Part shown: piece after piece, positions 41,107-53,292 of the stretch | Numbering within the stretch: position 1 is the first letter of the stretch | Layout of the letters: each line of letters starts with the position of its first letter | Origin: Acidimicrobiaceae bacterium | GTDB taxonomy: Bacteria > Actinomycetota > Acidimicrobiia > Acidimicrobiales > RAAP-2 | Assembly (NCBI GenBank): GCA_003138895.1 | Contig: PLHJ01000005.1 | Coordinates: forward strand, 113,086 to 177,085 | Length of the DNA: 64,000 bases | Direction: 5' to 3' | Position numbers and translations under genes: made by a program | Notes under the pieces: generated by a model | The model's database searches: none | The model's input: only the letters and a program-made list of their open reading frames with translations | What the model was told of the DNA's origin: nothing

Positions 41107-42315
41107 TTAGTTGAGTCGCTCGACAATCATGGACATTCCTTGTCCACCACCGACGCACATTGATTCCATGCCGAAGGTCTTGTCGTCGTCTTCCAAAGCG
41201 TTGAGCAATGTCGTCATGATGCGAGCACCGGTCATTCCAAAGGGGTGTCCGAGCGCAATGCCGCCACCCTTGACGTTCAATTTGTCCCACGAGATGCCCA
41301 GGTGCTTGGCACTGGGAATAACTTGGGCGGCGAAGGCCTCGTTGATTTCGACGAGGTCAATGTCGTCAATGCTCAAATCGGCGCGGCGAAGCGCTTGGCG
41401 ACACGCCTCGATGGGTCCGAGTCCCATGATTTCGGGGTTAAGACCACTCACGCCGCTTGACACAATGCGTGCCAGAGGTGTGATGCCCAACTCTTTGGCC
41501 TTGGTGTCACTCATCACAATTACGGCTGCGGCGCCGTCGTTCAGCGGGCAAGCGTTACCGGCGGTGACTTTGCCACCTTCACGGAAAACTGGCTGTAGCT
41601 GCGAAAGCTTTTCGACGGTAGTTCCGGCTCGCGGACCATCATCCTTTTTTACGACGGTGCCGTCGGGGAGTGTTACCGGAATAATCTCTCGCTCGAAGAA
41701 ACCGTTTTCCTGGCTTGCTACGGCACGAGCCTGCGACAACGCTGCGAACTCATCCATCTCTTCTCGCGAGACATTCTCGAACTCGGCAACGTTCTCAGCG
41801 GTTTGTCCCATGGCAATGTAAATGTCGGGCAGCCCGGGCTGGGGCGTCCAAGGATCGCCAGCCTTTTCGGAACGCGACGCCGTGCGGGCGAGTGCGTCAC
41901 TAAATAGCGGGTTCATTGCCTTGCCACTATCGGAAGCGCCGGAGGCGAACCTCGAGACCGTCTCGACACCGGCGGCGATAAAGACATCACCTTCGCCAGC
42001 CTTGATGGCGTGGGCCGCCATGCGGATGGTCTGCAGTGAAGAAGAACAGTATCGATTCACTGTGACGCCGGGCACATCACTTAGTCCGGCCAACACGGCC
42101 ACCACGCGAGCAATGTTGAAACCCGATTCACCAGCGGGCTGTCCACAACCAAGAATGAGGTCTTCCACACTCTGAGGGTTCAACTGGGGAACCTTCGAAA
42201 GCACTTCAGTGACGACAAGTGCGGTGAGGTCGTCGGGTCGCATGTCGACAAGTGATCCCTTGAACGCGCGACCAATGGGTGTGCGTCCAGTAGCGACGAT
42301 GACGGCTTCGGGCAT
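41107..42315 (-). CDS. Acetyl-CoA C-acyltransferase (thiolase)
   Basis: VNRYCSSSLQTIRMAAHAI (catalytic Cys), NEAFAAQVI, GGGIALGHPFGMTGAR, MCVGGGQGMSMIVE. Confidence 0.95.
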   Translation of the reverse strand: MPEAVIVATGRTPIGRAFKGSLVDMRPDDLTALVVTEVLSKVPQLNPQSVEDLILGCGQPAGESGFNIARVVAVLAGLSDVPGVTVNRYCSSSLQTIRMAAHAIKAGEGDVFIAAGVETVSRFASGASDSGKAMNPLFSDALARTASRSEKAGDPWTPQPGLPDIYIAMGQTAENVAEFENVSREEMDEFAALSQARAVASQENGFFEREIIPVTLPDGTVVKKDDGPRAGTTVEKLSQLQPVFREGGKVTAGNACPLNDGAAAVIVMSDTKAKELGITPLARIVSSGVSGLNPEIMGLGPIEACRQALRRADLSIDDIDLVEINEAFAAQVIPSAKHLGISWDKLNVKGGGIALGHPFGMTGARIMTTLLNALEDDDKTFGMESMCVGGGQGMSMIVERLN

Positions 42316-43587: not shown

Positions 43588-45729
43588 ATGAGGTTTATGA
43601 GTACAGAGTTCGAAGAGTCGGTGACACCGGATTTTCGACTCGACGTTCAAGGACTCCGAGCCATTGCCGTCGGCCTCGTTATCCTGTACCACTTCAATTT
43701 GTTGGGATTCAATGGCGGCTACGTGGGCGTTGACGTCTTCTTTGTGATCTCGGGCTTCGTCATTGCGGGTGTTCTACTGCGCGATACCGCCAAGCACGGA
43801 CGTCCGTCGTTGCTGCAGTTCTACGCGCGCCGAGCTCGTCGCATTATTCCCGCGTCAACAACGGTGCTCGTCACTACGGTGGTCGCTTCGTATTTACTAT
43901 TTGGTCGATACGCCACGGCCGCGGTGGCGAACGACGCGCGAGCCGCTGCACTTTTTGTGGCGAATTATCACTTCGCGTGGGAAGGGACGAATTACTTTGC
44001 TTCCCAACAAGCCCCATCGGCATTGCTGCACTTCTGGTCTTTGGCTGTTGAAGAACAGTTCTATTTTGTTATCCCGGCACTGGTGCTGTTGGTCGCAACG
44101 GTGTCAAGGAATTTTCGGAGGCATCTCGCTCTCGTCGTCACCGTGATTGTCGTGGCGTCGCTTGTTTGGTCGTACCTCTCGACTAACAACGATCCCATTA
44201 CCGCCTACTACTCAATTCTCACACGCGCCTGGGAGCTTGGCGTTGGCATACTCGTCGCGCTCGCCGTACGACGACTTTCAACTCTTCGCGCATCAGTTGC
44301 CGCCACTGCTACGTGGTTAGGTGTTGGACTCATACTGGCGGCCGCCTGGGGATTTAGTGGAACGACGGTGTATCCCGGTCTCGCCGCAGTTGTTCCCGTG
44401 GCGGGAGCGGCTCTCGTTATTTTGGGAGGAGCCGCCCGACCGCGAATGGGCGCCAGCTCCGTGTTGTCGACACGATCCTTTGTCTACGTCGGCGACCTTT
44501 CGTATTCTTTATACCTCTGGCACTTTCCAGTTATTGCACTCGCCGCCCAGCGTCAGTCCACACCTCTTTCCTTAGCGACACGACTGGTGTGCCTCGTTAT
44601 TGCCGTCGTGCTCTCACTCGTTAGTTTTTACGTTGTGGAACGACCTTTTCGAAGTGCTCGGCTCCTGCGCAAACGCTCGAGCGCTGCGCTCGGTGTCGGC
44701 GCCGTTGGTATTTCTCTTTCGCTGCTCGTTGCCACTGTTGCTCTTCCTTCAGCGGGAGGGTCTGCCACGACGGTCGCGGGACACCCCGCGCTCGCGCAAC
44801 TGGAACAACAAGTCGAGAGCGCCACCGCTGCCACGAGTCTGCCGTCGTCGACATTCCCAGCGCTGTCACTCAATCTTGATGCGACGACGTTTTCTATTCC
44901 CTCGATGATCGCAAATTGTTCGCCACCGAGCGCAGGTTATGTGGTTCCCGCCTGTGCGTACGGCGACACGTCAAGCAACAAGACGGTCGTGCTCTACGGT
45001 AATTCGCAAGCCCAGATGTGGGCCCCGGCACTTGATTGGCTCGGAAAGAGAGATCACTTCAAGGTCGTGCCCATTATGAAAGCCGCGTGTGGTGTATTTA
45101 TTGACAGGGGCTACGTGGGACCGAACGGTCAAGTCGGAACGCTTTGTCTGCATTTTGCGCAATGGTCGACGCAGAAAATCAACGCACTGCAACCGGCACT
45201 TGTCATCATTGCGACAACGCCGGGCGAACAACTAAAGCCCGGCGCAAGCGCTTCGCAACTTGGTCCCAACGGCCGTTTGCCGGCAAGTTCGACGGAACAA
45301 ATCGGTGTGCAACGTATGACGAAGGATTACCAAAAATTCCTCGCGGGCTTACATCTGGCAAAGAAATCGGTCGTGATGCTCAGCAACATTCCTATCCCTG
45401 CGCACCCGTCGAACGCTCTCGCGTACCCGAACGAATGCCTCTTAGAACATCCGCACGCTATTCAACAATGTTCGTCACCCCAGTCAGGTGTCGACACGAG
45501 TGAATGGCACCAAGCCTTAGTGGCCGCGACTGCGGCGACCAGCACGGCATTGATTGACGTCGATCCATTGCTTTGTTCGAAAGGTATGTGCCCCACGATT
45601 GTTGACCGAATTTTGGTGCACTTCGATACGGATCATTTGTCGGGTCCGTACACGCTGTACGCTGCGTTCGCCTTTGGTCAACTACTCGCGGGCTACCTGC
45701 CCAGTGCCGACTACTCAGCGGCTTTGTAG
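43588..45729 (+). CDS. Acyltransferase 3 (OafA/YrhL-like) with C-terminal SGNH-like domain
   Basis: FRLDVQGLRAIAVGLVILYHF, GGYVGVDVFFVISGFVI, FWSLAVEEQFY, C-terminal VVLYGNSQAQMWAPAL / DHLSGPYT. Confidence 0.92.
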   Translation: MRFMSTEFEESVTPDFRLDVQGLRAIAVGLVILYHFNLLGFNGGYVGVDVFFVISGFVIAGVLLRDTAKHGRPSLLQFYARRARRIIPASTTVLVTTVVASYLLFGRYATAAVANDARAAALFVANYHFAWEGTNYFASQQAPSALLHFWSLAVEEQFYFVIPALVLLVATVSRNFRRHLALVVTVIVVASLVWSYLSTNNDPITAYYSILTRAWELGVGILVALAVRRLSTLRASVAATATWLGVGLILAAAWGFSGTTVYPGLAAVVPVAGAALVILGGAARPRMGASSVLSTRSFVYVGDLSYSLYLWHFPVIALAAQRQSTPLSLATRLVCLVIAVVLSLVSFYVVERPFRSARLLRKRSSAALGVGAVGISLSLLVATVALPSAGGSATTVAGHPALAQLEQQVESATAATSLPSSTFPALSLNLDATTFSIPSMIANCSPPSAGYVVPACAYGDTSSNKTVVLYGNSQAQMWAPALDWLGKRDHFKVVPIMKAACGVFIDRGYVGPNGQVGTLCLHFAQWSTQKINALQPALVIIATTPGEQLKPGASASQLGPNGRLPASSTEQIGVQRMTKDYQKFLAGLHLAKKSVVMLSNIPIPAHPSNALAYPNECLLEHPHAIQQCSSPQSGVDTSEWHQALVAATAATSTALIDVDPLLCSKGMCPTIVDRILVHFDTDHLSGPYTLYAAFAFGQLLAGYLPSADYSAAL

Positions 45730-47331
45730 CCATTCGGTCATTTCACGGTGGTGACGTGCGTAGTCCATCTTGCCGTTCACGGCCCGTCCAATGCTCGTCA
45801 CGTGACGGACGAGCTTGGGCGCCTTATATGCGGCGAGATGTGTCTTGACGAACGTGACGAGTCCGTGCTCGTCAAAATGTTCATTCGGGTGTAGTTCCAC
45901 GACAGCCACAACTCGCTGACCAAAGGTTTCATCAGGCACACCAAGCACGCACGCGTCGGCAACCGACGGGTGCTTCTTTAAAGCCTCTTCCACTTCTTCG
46001 GGAAATACCTTCTCGCCACCCGTGTTGATGCACTGCGAACCTCGGCCCAAGAGCACGATGGTGCCGTCGTCATTCACCTTGGCCATGTCGCCCGGCACCG
46101 AATAGCGCACACCGTCAAGTACGGGAAAGGTGCGCTGCGTTTTTTCGGGGTCGCGAAAATAACCAAGGGGGAGTCGTCCGCCGAGCATTACTTTTCCAAT
46201 TTCGTCACTGCCCGGCTGCACATCGCGGCCGTCATCGCCAATAACTCGAACGTCAGCTCCCGCCGAAAACTGCGCGGTGCGAGGACCACGGGCGCCAGAA
46301 GAAATACTGCCGCCAAGGCCCAAGGCTTCTGATGATCCAAGGGTGTCCGCGCAGAGCATTGAAGGATTGTGTTTTAAAAGACCTTCTTTTATCTCTTCGC
46401 TCCACATCGCACCAGAACTACCAATCATTTGGACAGAGCGCAAGGAATAGGCATCAGGCTTTTCATCGAGGACTCGCAGTAGTGGCCGGGCGAAGGGATC
46501 GCCGACGATGACCACCACCTGCACGCCGCGTTCGGTGATGACGCGGGCCATCTCTTCGGGGTCGTAGGAGATATCGCTCAACAACACGATGCGTCCACCG
46601 TTCATGAAATTTCGCATGGCGCTAAAGAGACCGGTGCCGTGCATGAGGGGACAGGCCGGCAACATGATTCGCCCAGGTCCCGCCTCTTTCATCAACGAGA
46701 CGACGTCATTGAGGTTGCCGTCATCGGGATAGCGAGGGCTTGCCCCTTCGTTGAGTCGAGCAAAAAGATCATCCTGTCGCCACATCACACCCTTGGGAAG
46801 CCCCGTTGTTCCCCCGGTGTAGAGCAACAAAAGATCGTCGCCCGAACCCGTGGGCATGGGGACTCGCTCGTGGCGTGCCACTTCGAAGAACGGTGTGGCC
46901 CACGATGGACACGGCGACGTTCCGTCATCAACGTGGACAAAATGCTGCAGTAGGGGCAAATGTTTTCGTGCCTCATTCACTTGTTCTGTGAATGCTCCGT
47001 GGAAAACAACAACACGAGCTTCAGCGTTATCAAAGAGGTAAATCAGCTCATCTGCCTTGTAGCGGTAATTGGTATTCATGGGTACGAGCCGGGCGTTCAG
47101 TGCGCCCGCAAATCCAATGAGGTATTCGGGACAGTTATATAAATAGAGAGCCAACGAACTCTGCAGCGGCAGATTTAGTTCGAGTAACCAACTGGCGAAA
47201 CTCTCACTCTGCTCTCCAAATTCGGACCAGGTGACGACGCGGTCCCCTTGCTCAATGGCAATCTCGGTGGGCTGAAGGCCACCGATGGCCCGCCAAACAT
47301 TGGCGAAGTTCCAGTTCGACACATCCCCCAC
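45715..47331 (-). CDS. Acyl-CoA synthetase (AMP-dependent ligase)
   Basis: LLLYTGGTTGLPKGVMW, ALGLGGSISSG, GRGSQCINTGGEKVFPEEVEEALKKHPSV, VNGKMDY. Confidence 0.93.
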   Translation of the reverse strand: MGDVSNWNFANVWRAIGGLQPTEIAIEQGDRVVTWSEFGEQSESFASWLLELNLPLQSSLALYLYNCPEYLIGFAGALNARLVPMNTNYRYKADELIYLFDNAEARVVVFHGAFTEQVNEARKHLPLLQHFVHVDDGTSPCPSWATPFFEVARHERVPMPTGSGDDLLLLYTGGTTGLPKGVMWRQDDLFARLNEGASPRYPDDGNLNDVVSLMKEAGPGRIMLPACPLMHGTGLFSAMRNFMNGGRIVLLSDISYDPEEMARVITERGVQVVVIVGDPFARPLLRVLDEKPDAYSLRSVQMIGSSGAMWSEEIKEGLLKHNPSMLCADTLGSSEALGLGGSISSGARGPRTAQFSAGADVRVIGDDGRDVQPGSDEIGKVMLGGRLPLGYFRDPEKTQRTFPVLDGVRYSVPGDMAKVNDDGTIVLLGRGSQCINTGGEKVFPEEVEEALKKHPSVADACVLGVPDETFGQRVVAVVELHPNEHFDEHGLVTFVKTHLAAYKAPKLVRHVTSIGRAVNGKMDYARHHREMTEWLQSR

Positions 47332-47342
47332 TTTGTCCCTCG

Positions 47343-47362
47343 AGTAACTATCGCAGGTTACT
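47343..47362. promoter_or_regulatory. Inverted repeat AGTAAC-N8-GTTACT upstream of acyl-CoA synthetase
   Basis: Same 6-mer halves as the palindrome upstream of the thiolase at 42330, opposite arrangement; overlaps riboflavin synthase stop. Confidence 0.4.
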
Positions 47363-47870
47363 GAGTCGCACCGACGTTGAGGGGACCGGCGTCACCAAAA
47401 CCTTGACGAACCCCTTGACCCGCTCGCTTCGCCAGTTGTTCAGGTTCAAACAACATCCAATAGGCATTTCGTGCGTGCTTGCGGGAACGGTCGTCAAACA
47501 CTGATGCCAGCACGGCGGGGTCGTCGGACTCATCCTCGTGCACGAAGACCTCCAAAATCGGCGTCGACGTGAGCAACTGCGCCTGCATGATTCCCTGAGC
47601 GGCTTCGTGGGCGCATTGCTTGTCGATCGGCGCGCTTCCGGGCATCCCAAGTGCGACGACGATGCTGCAGTGATCTTTCTCGATCAGATTTTTAGCGGCA
47701 ACAGCGAGGTCCTTGAAGCCGGGCACAGTCTTGGTGAGGACAATAAATTTCTCGCCGTAACCCGGGCACGTTCCCAGTTCGTCGACCGCTGCTTTTCCCA
47801 TGTTGTACCGAGCGAACATGGTGTCAACCACGCCAATGCGCACCGGCTGGTGTTTCTTTTTCTTTCCCAC
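47358..47870 (-). CDS. ribC: Archaeal-type riboflavin synthase (RibC, lumazine-synthase-like fold)
   Basis: 170 aa; RIGVVDTMFARYNMGKAAV, KTVPGFKDLAVAAKNLIEKDHCSIVVALGMPGSAPIDKQCAHEAAQGIMQAQLLTSTPILEVFVHEDE, RQGFGDAGP match the archaeal RibC pattern. Confidence 0.88.
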   Translation of the reverse strand: MGKKKKHQPVRIGVVDTMFARYNMGKAAVDELGTCPGYGEKFIVLTKTVPGFKDLAVAAKNLIEKDHCSIVVALGMPGSAPIDKQCAHEAAQGIMQAQLLTSTPILEVFVHEDESDDPAVLASVFDDRSRKHARNAYWMLFEPEQLAKRAGQGVRQGFGDAGPLNVGATQ

Positions 47871-47950: not shown

Positions 47951-50005
47951 TTGCCCAACACAAAGGAATTTCTAAAGAACCGTCGATACTTTCGACACGT
48001 GGCGACGGACGTACGAACACGATTCCTACTTCGAACTGACGTCGACGCCGCCGCGGAATCTAGGCACCGCCCTTCGTGGACAGTTGGCTGGCGCTTCGCT
48101 GTCGTCGCAACTATCTCGTTTCTCGTTCCCGACCTTCTGCTCTTTCGCGGGATCGTTTTTTCTTCGACGCTACGGATAGCCGGTTGGGGTTTTCCCGATA
48201 ACTATCAACAGGTCTGGTTTCTTGAGTGGCCCGCTCACGCGCTCGCCACGGGACAGAACATATTTGTTTCACACTCGCTCAACTATCCCTTCAGTGTCAA
48301 CCTAATGACGAACACGTCGATGATTCTTCTCGGCGTCCTTGCAACACCGCTGACGTTACTTGCGGGTCCCATAGTGACCTATAACGTGCTTTTAGCTCTG
48401 GGACTGTTGGCAAGCGCTCTCGCAATGACGTACGCCGCGCACAAGATTTGGCTACGTCCACCTTGGGCGTTACTCGCTGGTTATATCTACGGCTTTTCGA
48501 GTTTTGAGGTAGGTGAAGCGACGTCGCACGTGTTCATGGTCTTTGCCGTATTTCCTCCGTTGATATTTCTGGTTGTCGCGAGTTTGATTCTTGAAACGCT
48601 GTCAGTTTGTCGCGCCGGCATAACGCTTGGCATTTTGTTTGCCCTCTGTGCGCTCATTTCTTTTGAGCGATGCTTTGACACCGCTTTCGTCACCGCCGCG
48701 GCTTCGATCGTCGCCGCGGTCATTTGGCGAGAATCGTTGACGCACGAAGTCATCCGTCGGGTTGCCACGGGGCTCGGGTACGCACTACTTGCCTTTACCT
48801 GCGTGATGGCAGTGCCTTTTAGTTTTGCCTTGTTTGGACCTGAACACGTCTCCCTGAATGTGCATAACTACGTTGCCCTGTACCACGGCTATCTGTCTCA
48901 ATTCTTTCTCGGTGGACCAGCTGCGTTTCCGCCGGTCGCTCCCACGTTTCATTGGACATGGAATTTGTTTACGAGTACTTCGAGGAACCAATTATTCGTG
49001 GGTGTGCCGCTCATCATCTTTTTGTTGATGGCCATTGCGCGAAACCGTCGATTGAAGACCATGTATTTCTTCCTTGTGGTGGGGACGTTTTTAATACTGA
49101 TGACACTAGGAAACTCGGTGTACCTCGGAGGTTCGTGGTCACTATGGTCGCCGGTGCGCTACCTCGACAAACTTCCGCTCTTTAGTAGTGCGTTACCCGA
49201 GCGCTTTGGCATGTTCGTATGGCTGCTCATTGCCTTTGTGACGGCGGCGGTACTGCAAAGTTGGTCGACGATCATCGTCGACGACGCCACGGGGCGAAAG
49301 CTCGACATTGGACGTTGGTCACTCGCGGTCGTCGTCGTATCCGCGATAACAATTTCTTCGCACCCGATGGAGGCGGTGTTCGTCGCGTTGGGATTTTTCA
49401 TTATCGAAGTCATTCGACTTCGCCGGCTAACCGCTCGGGGAAAGGGGAGAGTGACCGCCTTTGCGAGCACCGTTGCTCTCAGCATTGTTCTCCCGTTTGC
49501 TTCACTCGGCCCACTCGTGTCGGCGTCGCCGGGCATCGCATCGTGGTTTTCTACTTCTTCAAGCGAGCACCTTTTGTCAGAAAACAAAACAGTGTTGTGG
49601 TACCCGTACCCGAGCGCACTGAACGACCAAGCAATGCTCGTTCAGGCTCAAACGGGAGTGAAATTTCGCCTGGTCGGTGGCTACGCAATCGTCCGCGGCG
49701 ATGGTTATGGTACGTCGGTGCTGCCTCTTTCGCCGACGGCCCTTCCTGACATGCTTCTTCGCACGTACGACGGCAGCAGAACCGGTGCGCTCAATGACAA
49801 TATTCTCCCCGTCGGTCCGCTACCACCACTCACGTCCAGAACGATTCATTCCTTCCATGTTTTCGTAGCGAAATATCATGTCTCGACGATTGTTATGCAA
49901 TGGACGGGAGCGAAACCCGCGTTGGCACTCAAATATCTCGAGGCGGCCTTTGGCCCACCAACGATTAAAGACGGTGGGGCCGTTCGATACTGGTCGTTCA
50001 AATAA
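47951..50005 (+). CDS. Large polytopic membrane protein, GT-C-like
   Basis: 684 aa, >10 TM helices; GWGFPDNYQQVWFLEWPAHALATGQNIFVSHSLNYPFSVNLMTNTSM resembles GT-C-type luminal loop; start uncertain. Confidence 0.6.
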   Translation: MPNTKEFLKNRRYFRHVATDVRTRFLLRTDVDAAAESRHRPSWTVGWRFAVVATISFLVPDLLLFRGIVFSSTLRIAGWGFPDNYQQVWFLEWPAHALATGQNIFVSHSLNYPFSVNLMTNTSMILLGVLATPLTLLAGPIVTYNVLLALGLLASALAMTYAAHKIWLRPPWALLAGYIYGFSSFEVGEATSHVFMVFAVFPPLIFLVVASLILETLSVCRAGITLGILFALCALISFERCFDTAFVTAAASIVAAVIWRESLTHEVIRRVATGLGYALLAFTCVMAVPFSFALFGPEHVSLNVHNYVALYHGYLSQFFLGGPAAFPPVAPTFHWTWNLFTSTSRNQLFVGVPLIIFLLMAIARNRRLKTMYFFLVVGTFLILMTLGNSVYLGGSWSLWSPVRYLDKLPLFSSALPERFGMFVWLLIAFVTAAVLQSWSTIIVDDATGRKLDIGRWSLAVVVVSAITISSHPMEAVFVALGFFIIEVIRLRRLTARGKGRVTAFASTVALSIVLPFASLGPLVSASPGIASWFSTSSSEHLLSENKTVLWYPYPSALNDQAMLVQAQTGVKFRLVGGYAIVRGDGYGTSVLPLSPTALPDMLLRTYDGSRTGALNDNILPVGPLPPLTSRTIHSFHVFVAKYHVSTIVMQWTGAKPALALKYLEAAFGPPTIKDGGAVRYWSFK

Positions 50006-51389: not shown

Positions 51390-52339
51390 GCGAGCGCGCG
51401 CGAAAGACGTTCGTCAAGCCAACTGAGAAGTTCGGTTTGGTCGAGTAACGGATTCTCGGACACCGTCTTTTTTCCTCGGTACACCGGTCGTTCTTCGCGG
51501 TCGAGCCAGAGTCCGCCACCTTCGGGCGTGGGTTCGTGACTTGCGAGCCATAACGCACCGTCGACGCCTTGCTTGGGTGTTCGAAGTAGCGGTCGCGTGA
51601 GCGTATTAAAGAGCGGCAGACTTTCACTGACGCCTGGCGTCGCAGTCCACCCGGGGTGAACAGCGTAGAAAGTGGCGCCGTCGCTCGGCTCGCGGTGCTG
51701 CAGCGCACCGGTCAAGACAACTTGACCACGCTTGACGCGAGCGTAGGCCACTGATCCCTTGTAGTGATCGGGAATCGCTTCGAGTTTTCGCAGACTAAAC
51801 GGCTGCGTGTACATACCACCTGACGTCATGAAAATAAATCGAGCGTGCTCGGCGGTGAGTCGCTTCGCGAGCGTCGTTGCCAGAACGTAGGGGGAAAGTA
51901 GATGAACCGCGAGAGTCACTTCGACGTTTTGGGGCGAAACCGAAAAGGTATTTAGAAGTGCCCCGGCATTACTCAAGACCACGTCTAAGCGATTGAGATC
52001 ACCGAGTCGTTTGGCGAATGCATGCGTGTCTCGAAGGTCGGCCAAATCGAATCGCCAGGTTTCTCCGCGTTTTCCGAGGAACTCTCCCAGATCGTCGAGA
52101 GCCTTTTGATTACGACCGATACCTACGACGTAGGCACCAAGCTCGGCCAGCGTGCGAATACCCGCGGCGCCAAGTCCGGAGGTGGCACCCGTGACGACGA
52201 CGGTTTTTCCGTCGAGGCGCTCGAGTGGTTTCCAGCCTTGGGAGTGTCTGCGAATTGATGGTCCCAGTCGCGTGAAGCTGCCAACAATCGATCCTTCAAG
52301 AACCGTGTCGAGCCATCCTTTGCCGAGCGGTGTACTCAC
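51386..52339 (-). CDS. SDR family oxidoreductase
   Basis: VVVTGATSGLGAAGIRTLAELGAYVVGIGR, VLSNAGALL, YARVKRGQ. Confidence 0.9.
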   Translation of the reverse strand: MSTPLGKGWLDTVLEGSIVGSFTRLGPSIRRHSQGWKPLERLDGKTVVVTGATSGLGAAGIRTLAELGAYVVGIGRNQKALDDLGEFLGKRGETWRFDLADLRDTHAFAKRLGDLNRLDVVLSNAGALLNTFSVSPQNVEVTLAVHLLSPYVLATTLAKRLTAEHARFIFMTSGGMYTQPFSLRKLEAIPDHYKGSVAYARVKRGQVVLTGALQHREPSDGATFYAVHPGWTATPGVSESLPLFNTLTRPLLRTPKQGVDGALWLASHEPTPEGGGLWLDREERPVYRGKKTVSENPLLDQTELLSWLDERLSRALA

Positions 52340-53292
52340 GAGCGCGGCGCCAGTCCTTCAACGGCTTCTCGAAGATCAATGCCGAAGGGGACAATCGCAA
52401 GGGTGGCGCGCGTGACGCCCGCGTCGAGGTACCGCTGGACGTGATCGCGACACTCGTCGTAGGAACCATGAATAATCAACTCATCAACGACGTGATCGGG
52501 AATGACTTCGTTCGCTTTCTTGCGGTCACCTGCCGCCCACGCGTCCCACATTGGTTGGAGTACCTCGGTACGACCGAGCCAGCGGTGAAACTCGGCGTAC
52601 CCCTCGACCGTGAGGTACGAGGAGATCATTCGACGAGCAATGAAACGCGCCGTGTCTTTGTCCGTGGTCGGAATCACAAATATTCTGGCGGCAATGGTCT
52701 TTCCTTCACCCACTTCATTGCGACACTGAGCAACATCGTTCGCGCCCAACCAGTTGAGAATGGCGCCGTCGGCTTCGCGTCCGGCGAGACGAAGCATGCC
52801 GGGTCGAAGAGCGCCGAGCAAAATCTCTGGACGCACGGCTACCGGACGAGCGAGTTTGAATCCGTGAACCTCAAAGGTTTCAAAGACTTCATCAATTTTT
52901 TCACCGTCCAACGCACGCTTCACGAAACGTAGGACGTCACGGGTCTTGGCGTAGGGCTTTTCGTACGGAATTCCGTTCCACCTTTCGACAACGGGAAAAC
53001 TCGATGAACCGAGTCCCATTGAGAATCGACCTGGCGCAGCCTCGGCAATGGAGGCAATGCTCATGGCGAGAAGTCCTGGGCCCCGGGTGAACGCTGGCGT
53101 TACCGCCACACCGAGATCCAAGCGTGGCTCCCACGCTGCGGCGAGCGCGAGCGGCGTGAAGCCGTCCGTACCGTCAACCTCCGCCGACCAAACGTCGCGG
53201 TAACCAAGGTCAGCCAACAGATGGAACCATTCCTTGTGCTCTTGCAGGGTGATGCCGTCAAAAGGGATAGTGATCCCGTACGAAGTGGTCAT
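52336..53292 (-). CDS. LLM-class, probable F420-dependent oxidoreductase
   Basis: 318 aa; LADLGYRDVWSAEVDGTDGFTPLALAAAWEPRLDLGVAVTPAFTRGPGLLAMSIASIAEAAPGRFSMGLGSSS. Confidence 0.92.
   Translation of the reverse strand: MTTSYGITIPFDGITLQEHKEWFHLLADLGYRDVWSAEVDGTDGFTPLALAAAWEPRLDLGVAVTPAFTRGPGLLAMSIASIAEAAPGRFSMGLGSSSFPVVERWNGIPYEKPYAKTRDVLRFVKRALDGEKIDEVFETFEVHGFKLARPVAVRPEILLGALRPGMLRLAGREADGAILNWLGANDVAQCRNEVGEGKTIAARIFVIPTTDKDTARFIARRMISSYLTVEGYAEFHRWLGRTEVLQPMWDAWAAGDRKKANEVIPDHVVDELIIHGSYDECRDHVQRYLDAGVTRATLAIVPFGIDLREAVEGLAPRS

Follow-up and report, generated by a model that had tools for sequence, protein, structure and literature searches.

Within the window (the whole 64-kb stretch of DNA that was analysed), a minus-strand frame with its GTG start at 47870 and its stop at 47358 carries a candidate ribC gene for an archaeal-type riboflavin synthase (Table 1). 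The preliminary description had recognized archaeal RibC motifs in this frame, between an acyl-CoA synthetase gene and a membrane-protein gene and away from any rib operon. The motifs are present in the 170-aa translation, both neighbors are as described, and no rib gene lies beside ribC in the window. The GC content of ribC is 57.1%, as compared to 56.5% for the window. A functional link between ribC and the neighboring acyl-CoA synthetase gene was considered and rejected, since just 4 of 137 loci have the two side by side. Thiolase and LLM-class F420-dependent oxidoreductase genes lie near ribC in 70 and 58 of the 137 ribC loci, respectively, and are usual in the genus of the window. Between these two genes, the segment 42386-52339 contains a ChrA-like transporter, an acyltransferase, the acyl-CoA synthetase and the large membrane protein, an arrangement apparently due to a local insertion or rearrangement.

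Table 1. Coordinates of ribC and surrounding genes in the window.
Feature	Position	Strand	Remarks
ribC, predicted archaeal-type riboflavin synthase, lumazine-synthase fold, 170 aa	47358..47870	minus	TIGR01506; 2B98/2B99; 56 conserved residues
acyl-CoA synthetase (NF005863)	45715..47331	minus	26 bp downstream of ribC, same strand
membrane protein	47951..50005	plus	neighbor of ribC on the other side
acetyl-CoA C-acetyltransferase (thiolase)	41107..42315	minus	context only
LLM-class F420-dependent oxidoreductase	52336..53292	minus	TIGR03841; context only

The protein gave a full-length match to TIGR01506 (ribC_arch), a curated equivalog for archaeal riboflavin synthase, with residues 12-164 aligned to profile positions 2-151 at 173.3 bits (E=3.1e-51; membership cut-off 100.55 bits), a resemblance that is beyond chance. 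In a sequence search of the PDB, the archaeal riboflavin synthase 2B98 was the best solved relative among natural sequences (E 1.3e-45), and the model used by NCBI would itself name the gene riboflavin synthase. An archaeal-type RibC is thus encoded in a bacterial genome, as had been proposed. Identity to the RibC of M. jannaschii reaches 52%. An AlphaFold model of the monomer, built from 36 sequences (pLDDT 88.4), was closest to 2B98 by fold comparison (TM 0.83 on the query and 0.92 on the target, rmsd 1.8); lumazine synthases followed with a TM of about 0.65. M. jannaschii RibC shares its residue with at least 97% of 136 bacterial homologues at 56 positions. The window protein carries the conserved residue at all 56, whereas the lumazine synthase RibH of the same organisms has a different one at most of them. 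Judged by its sequence, the protein is a member of a known family, archaeal riboflavin synthase, and riboflavin synthase activity is predicted from this membership, the modelled fold and the conserved residues. The archaeal enzyme is a homopentamer without sequence kinship to the bacterial trimer (PMC10366380; PDB 2B98/2B99), and by likeness to it the window RibC, modelled as a monomer alone, would be pentameric as well. In contrast to M. jannaschii RibC (TIGR01506; 2B98/2B99), which it resembles in all these respects, the window protein belongs to a bacterium with bacterial pathway genes, namely a bifunctional RibD, a fused RibBA and a canonical RibH.

The kinship with lumazine synthase rather than with the two-barrel RibE, also put forward initially, was borne out by Pfam searches, in which the protein matched the lumazine synthase superfamily (PF00885) with 54 bits, as expected of an archaeal RibC, and had no match to PF00677 (Lum_binding, the two barrels in RibE). 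Bacterial RibE (PF00677, TIGR00187) is expected to catalyze the same reaction as the window RibC but has an unrelated two-barrel fold and was not found in this genome. Since superfamily and fold class are common to RibC and RibH, and a weak match to the lumazine synthase equivalog TIGR00114 was also recorded, the gene might be taken for a second, RibH2-like lumazine synthase, making the substrate and not riboflavin. We regard this as very unlikely. The TIGR00114 score of 32.2 bits is below the cut-off of 84.6, whereas that for TIGR01506 is well above its own; in an alignment with the RibH of the same genome, the signature GAVIRGETGHYE is exchanged for GMPGSAPIDKQCAHEA in the window RibC, so that the RibH signature around the catalytic histidine (VIRGxTxH) is absent from it; and all of the RibC-conserved residues are present. 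Moreover, a canonical RibH is encoded elsewhere in the genome, and a second lumazine synthase would leave an otherwise complete pathway without a riboflavin synthase. A lumazine synthase paralogue was rejected on the family scores, the signature swap and the conserved residues.

The source genome is a MAG of 1.74 Mb in 26 contigs, 86% complete with 0.2% contamination. It encodes one canonical lumazine synthase RibH (PF00885 173.9 bits, TIGR00114 155 bits), a bifunctional RibD, a RibBA fusion and RibF, and a PF00677 profile search of this 86% complete MAG returned no match, so that it has no recognizable bacterial RibE. The other rib genes are on a different contig from ribC. They are arranged as def-fmt-rpe-ribD-ribBA-ribH, followed further on by infC (flanking names assigned by eye from the translations), and the ends of ribD and ribBA overlap. 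No FMN riboswitch was found in the 64-kb window or in the genome.

The same operon structure recurs among relatives. Genomes with RibE carry ribD-ribE-ribBA-ribH, and those with RibC carry ribD, ribBA and ribH in succession on one contig with no recognizable gene between them, often with rpe upstream. Two loci offered partial views: one (L184) lacks ribD in the 0.9 kb between the contig end and ribBA, and another (L214) ends within ribBA. As RibC genomes have ribD next to ribBA on the same contig, the absence of ribE is not an assembly gap; the lack of PF00677 above its cut-off in all but one genome of the family likewise speaks against this cause.

Across the family, TIGR01506 scored above its cut-off in 134 of 151 genomes and PF00677 in a single one (G055). 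In a sample of 149 genomes from the order, 24 had RibC, 98 had RibE (PF00677) and none had both (Fisher p 7e-14, a value to be taken as a guide only since related genomes are not independent). Full-length RibBA was present in 122 of these genomes, with 24 RibC, 97 RibE, none with both and one with neither (G493), from which it follows that exactly one of the two synthases goes with the rest of the pathway; the 27 genomes without full-length RibBA comprised no RibC, one RibE and 26 with neither. In class-level (148 genomes) and phylum-level (298 genomes) samples, no genome outside this order had a RibC above the TIGR01506 cut-off. Other members of the phylum gave weak TIGR01506 matches of about 20-36 bits, which look like ordinary lumazine synthases and not RibC. 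Three control archaea without PF00677 all matched TIGR01506. Close relatives are, by name, Acidimicrobiaceae, Acidimicrobiales and unclassified actinobacterial MAGs, and no ribC was matched among the phages searched. RibC is an old trait of the whole lineage and not an oddity of one genome.

Several individual records deserve mention. G055 carries, besides RibC, a RibE-RibB fusion of 451 aa (L170:8712-10067, minus strand) that is not part of a rib operon; its family otherwise lacks RibE. G493 has a full-length RibBA about 52-54% identical to that of the window genome (L218:2773-3957, minus strand), with no other rib gene adjoining it, and searches of this genome found no RibE and no RibC. In the order sample, 26 of 149 genomes have neither full-length RibBA nor a riboflavin synthase, and completeness is 95-99% for several of these. 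They are probable riboflavin auxotrophs; in many, the GTP cyclohydrolase II half is still matched and may serve F420 synthesis. One actinobacterial MAG (L119, G402:C309) has the C-terminal part of a RibC on an AT-rich contig of 1986 bp, probably archaeal contamination. Seven records titled Acidobacteria or Saccharibacteria (L056, L066, L076, L079, L083, L090 and L103) encode RibC proteins 78-83% identical to the window protein, and these titles are probably wrong.

Given this distribution, two explanations that would deprive the window gene of its significance can be weighed. The source genome being a MAG, an archaeal contig could have been mis-binned with an actinobacterial genome; yet ribC lies inside a 177-kb contig among genes common to relatives, its GC content equals that of its surroundings, and its presence in so many separate genomes of the family effectively refutes contamination, which was rejected. 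Alternatively, ribC could be accessory, with RibE merely missing from the assemblies, and there is a precedent in the archaeal-type RibE2 of Streptomyces, an additional copy in a roseoflavin cluster according to PMC11039241 and also found on an S. camelliae plasmid. This is hardly credible for the window gene, however, because contiguous operons with ribD next to ribBA contain no ribE, 150 of the 151 family genomes have no PF00677 match above cut-off, and RibC and RibE never co-occur in the order sample. On the operon without ribE and the mutual exclusivity across the order, replacement of RibE by RibC as the essential enzyme is strongly supported. The preliminary description had raised such a replacement for one bacterium; the present data support it as an old, lineage-wide trait.

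In order to trace its history, we compared RibC with RibBA. In a maximum-likelihood RibBA tree of 51 genomes, the 24 RibC genomes grouped together with one RibE genome (G570) among them. Two changes of state suffice on this tree, and the AU test does not reject one RibC clade (p 0.21); the position of G570 may reflect a second event or an error of the tree. RibC and RibBA distances were correlated among the 24 genomes (Mantel r 0.69, with 0 of 2000 permutations as high). Given the RibBA clustering and this correlation, a single ancient displacement with largely vertical inheritance thereafter appears the likeliest course. As the RibC tree holds one archaeal sequence, that of M. jannaschii used as outgroup, we infer the archaeal donor and the direction of transfer from the distribution. 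With a single archaeal sequence in the tree, RibC could instead be ancestral in the bacterial lineage, or archaea could have received it from bacteria, without any archaea-to-bacteria transfer. We consider this improbable: above-cut-off RibC is confined to one order in the class and phylum samples, the RibC genomes group among RibE lineages on the RibBA tree, and the control archaea all have the archaeal enzyme and no PF00677.

We therefore favor, with a probability of roughly 0.93, a reading in which ribC would encode the only riboflavin synthase of the cell. Its product would dismutate two molecules of 6,7-dimethyl-8-ribityllumazine, which the separate canonical RibH supplies, to riboflavin and 5-amino-6-ribitylaminouracil, on the scaffold of the archaeal RibC pentamer with its lumazine-synthase fold in place of the bacterial two-barrel trimer. 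In the archaeal enzyme, two 6,7-dimethyl-8-ribityllumazine molecules bind at the interface of neighboring subunits, and the 5-amino-6-ribitylaminouracil formed is reused by RibH. An ancestor within Acidimicrobiales would have acquired ribC, most likely from an archaeon, and subsequently lost ribE from a ribD-ribE-ribBA-ribH operon; ribC would thereafter have been inherited mostly vertically, at a locus outside the rib operon.

An archaeal-type riboflavin synthase has been described before in Actinomycetota, as RibE2 of the rosB roseoflavin cluster, which was ascribed to horizontal transfer (PMC11039241, citing Jankowitsch 2012) and is an additional copy in roseoflavin-producing Streptomyces. 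Like RibE2 (S. davaonensis, S. berlinensis and the S. camelliae plasmid), the window RibC is an archaeal-type enzyme in Actinomycetota; unlike this extra copy, located beside rosB in an antibiotic cluster, it is the only riboflavin synthase found and its gene lies among fatty-acid metabolism genes. The Streptomyces RibC was the only copy in the plasmid collection searched. On the S. camelliae plasmid (L168, NZ_CP115301.1, 12318-19594), ribA, a gamma-glutamyltransferase gene, archaeal-type ribC, ribX and rosB form, by gene content, a roseoflavin-type cluster. Its RibC is 62% identical to the window protein and up to 68% identical to Acidimicrobiales RibCs, as compared to 51% to M. jannaschii. 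In the RibC tree it is placed within the Acidimicrobiales sequences, though its branch is long and the placement lacks strong support. Acidimicrobiales, and not archaea directly, may be the source of the S. camelliae RibC. A more extended scenario, which we put forward tentatively and to which we give somewhat less than even odds, is that a single inter-domain transfer brought archaeal RibC to an acidimicrobial ancestor, where it displaced the essential RibE for a multi-family clade, and that bacteria of this lineage, and not an archaeon, later gave RibE2 to roseoflavin-producing Streptomyces. Whether actinobacteria were already known to carry such a gene can accordingly be answered in two parts: they were, as the accessory RibE2 of Streptomyces (PMC11039241), and in a literature search with most subscription journals outside its range we found no description of a bacterial lineage with an archaeal-type enzyme as its sole, clade-wide riboflavin synthase.

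The interest of the finding lies in the exclusive, clade-wide replacement of an essential enzyme whose trace is readable in an operon. Any organism that synthesizes its own vitamin B2 depends on riboflavin synthase, which is also under study as a drug target, and the usual assumption is that bacteria employ the two-barrel RibE. A clade that would rely on a structurally unrelated archaeal enzyme, with an operon without ribE and close relatives that keep RibE, offers a clean natural experiment in essential-enzyme displacement. A missing RibE alone is poor ground for calling such genomes riboflavin auxotrophs, and Acidimicrobiales may be considered as another possible origin of RibE2 in roseoflavin producers.
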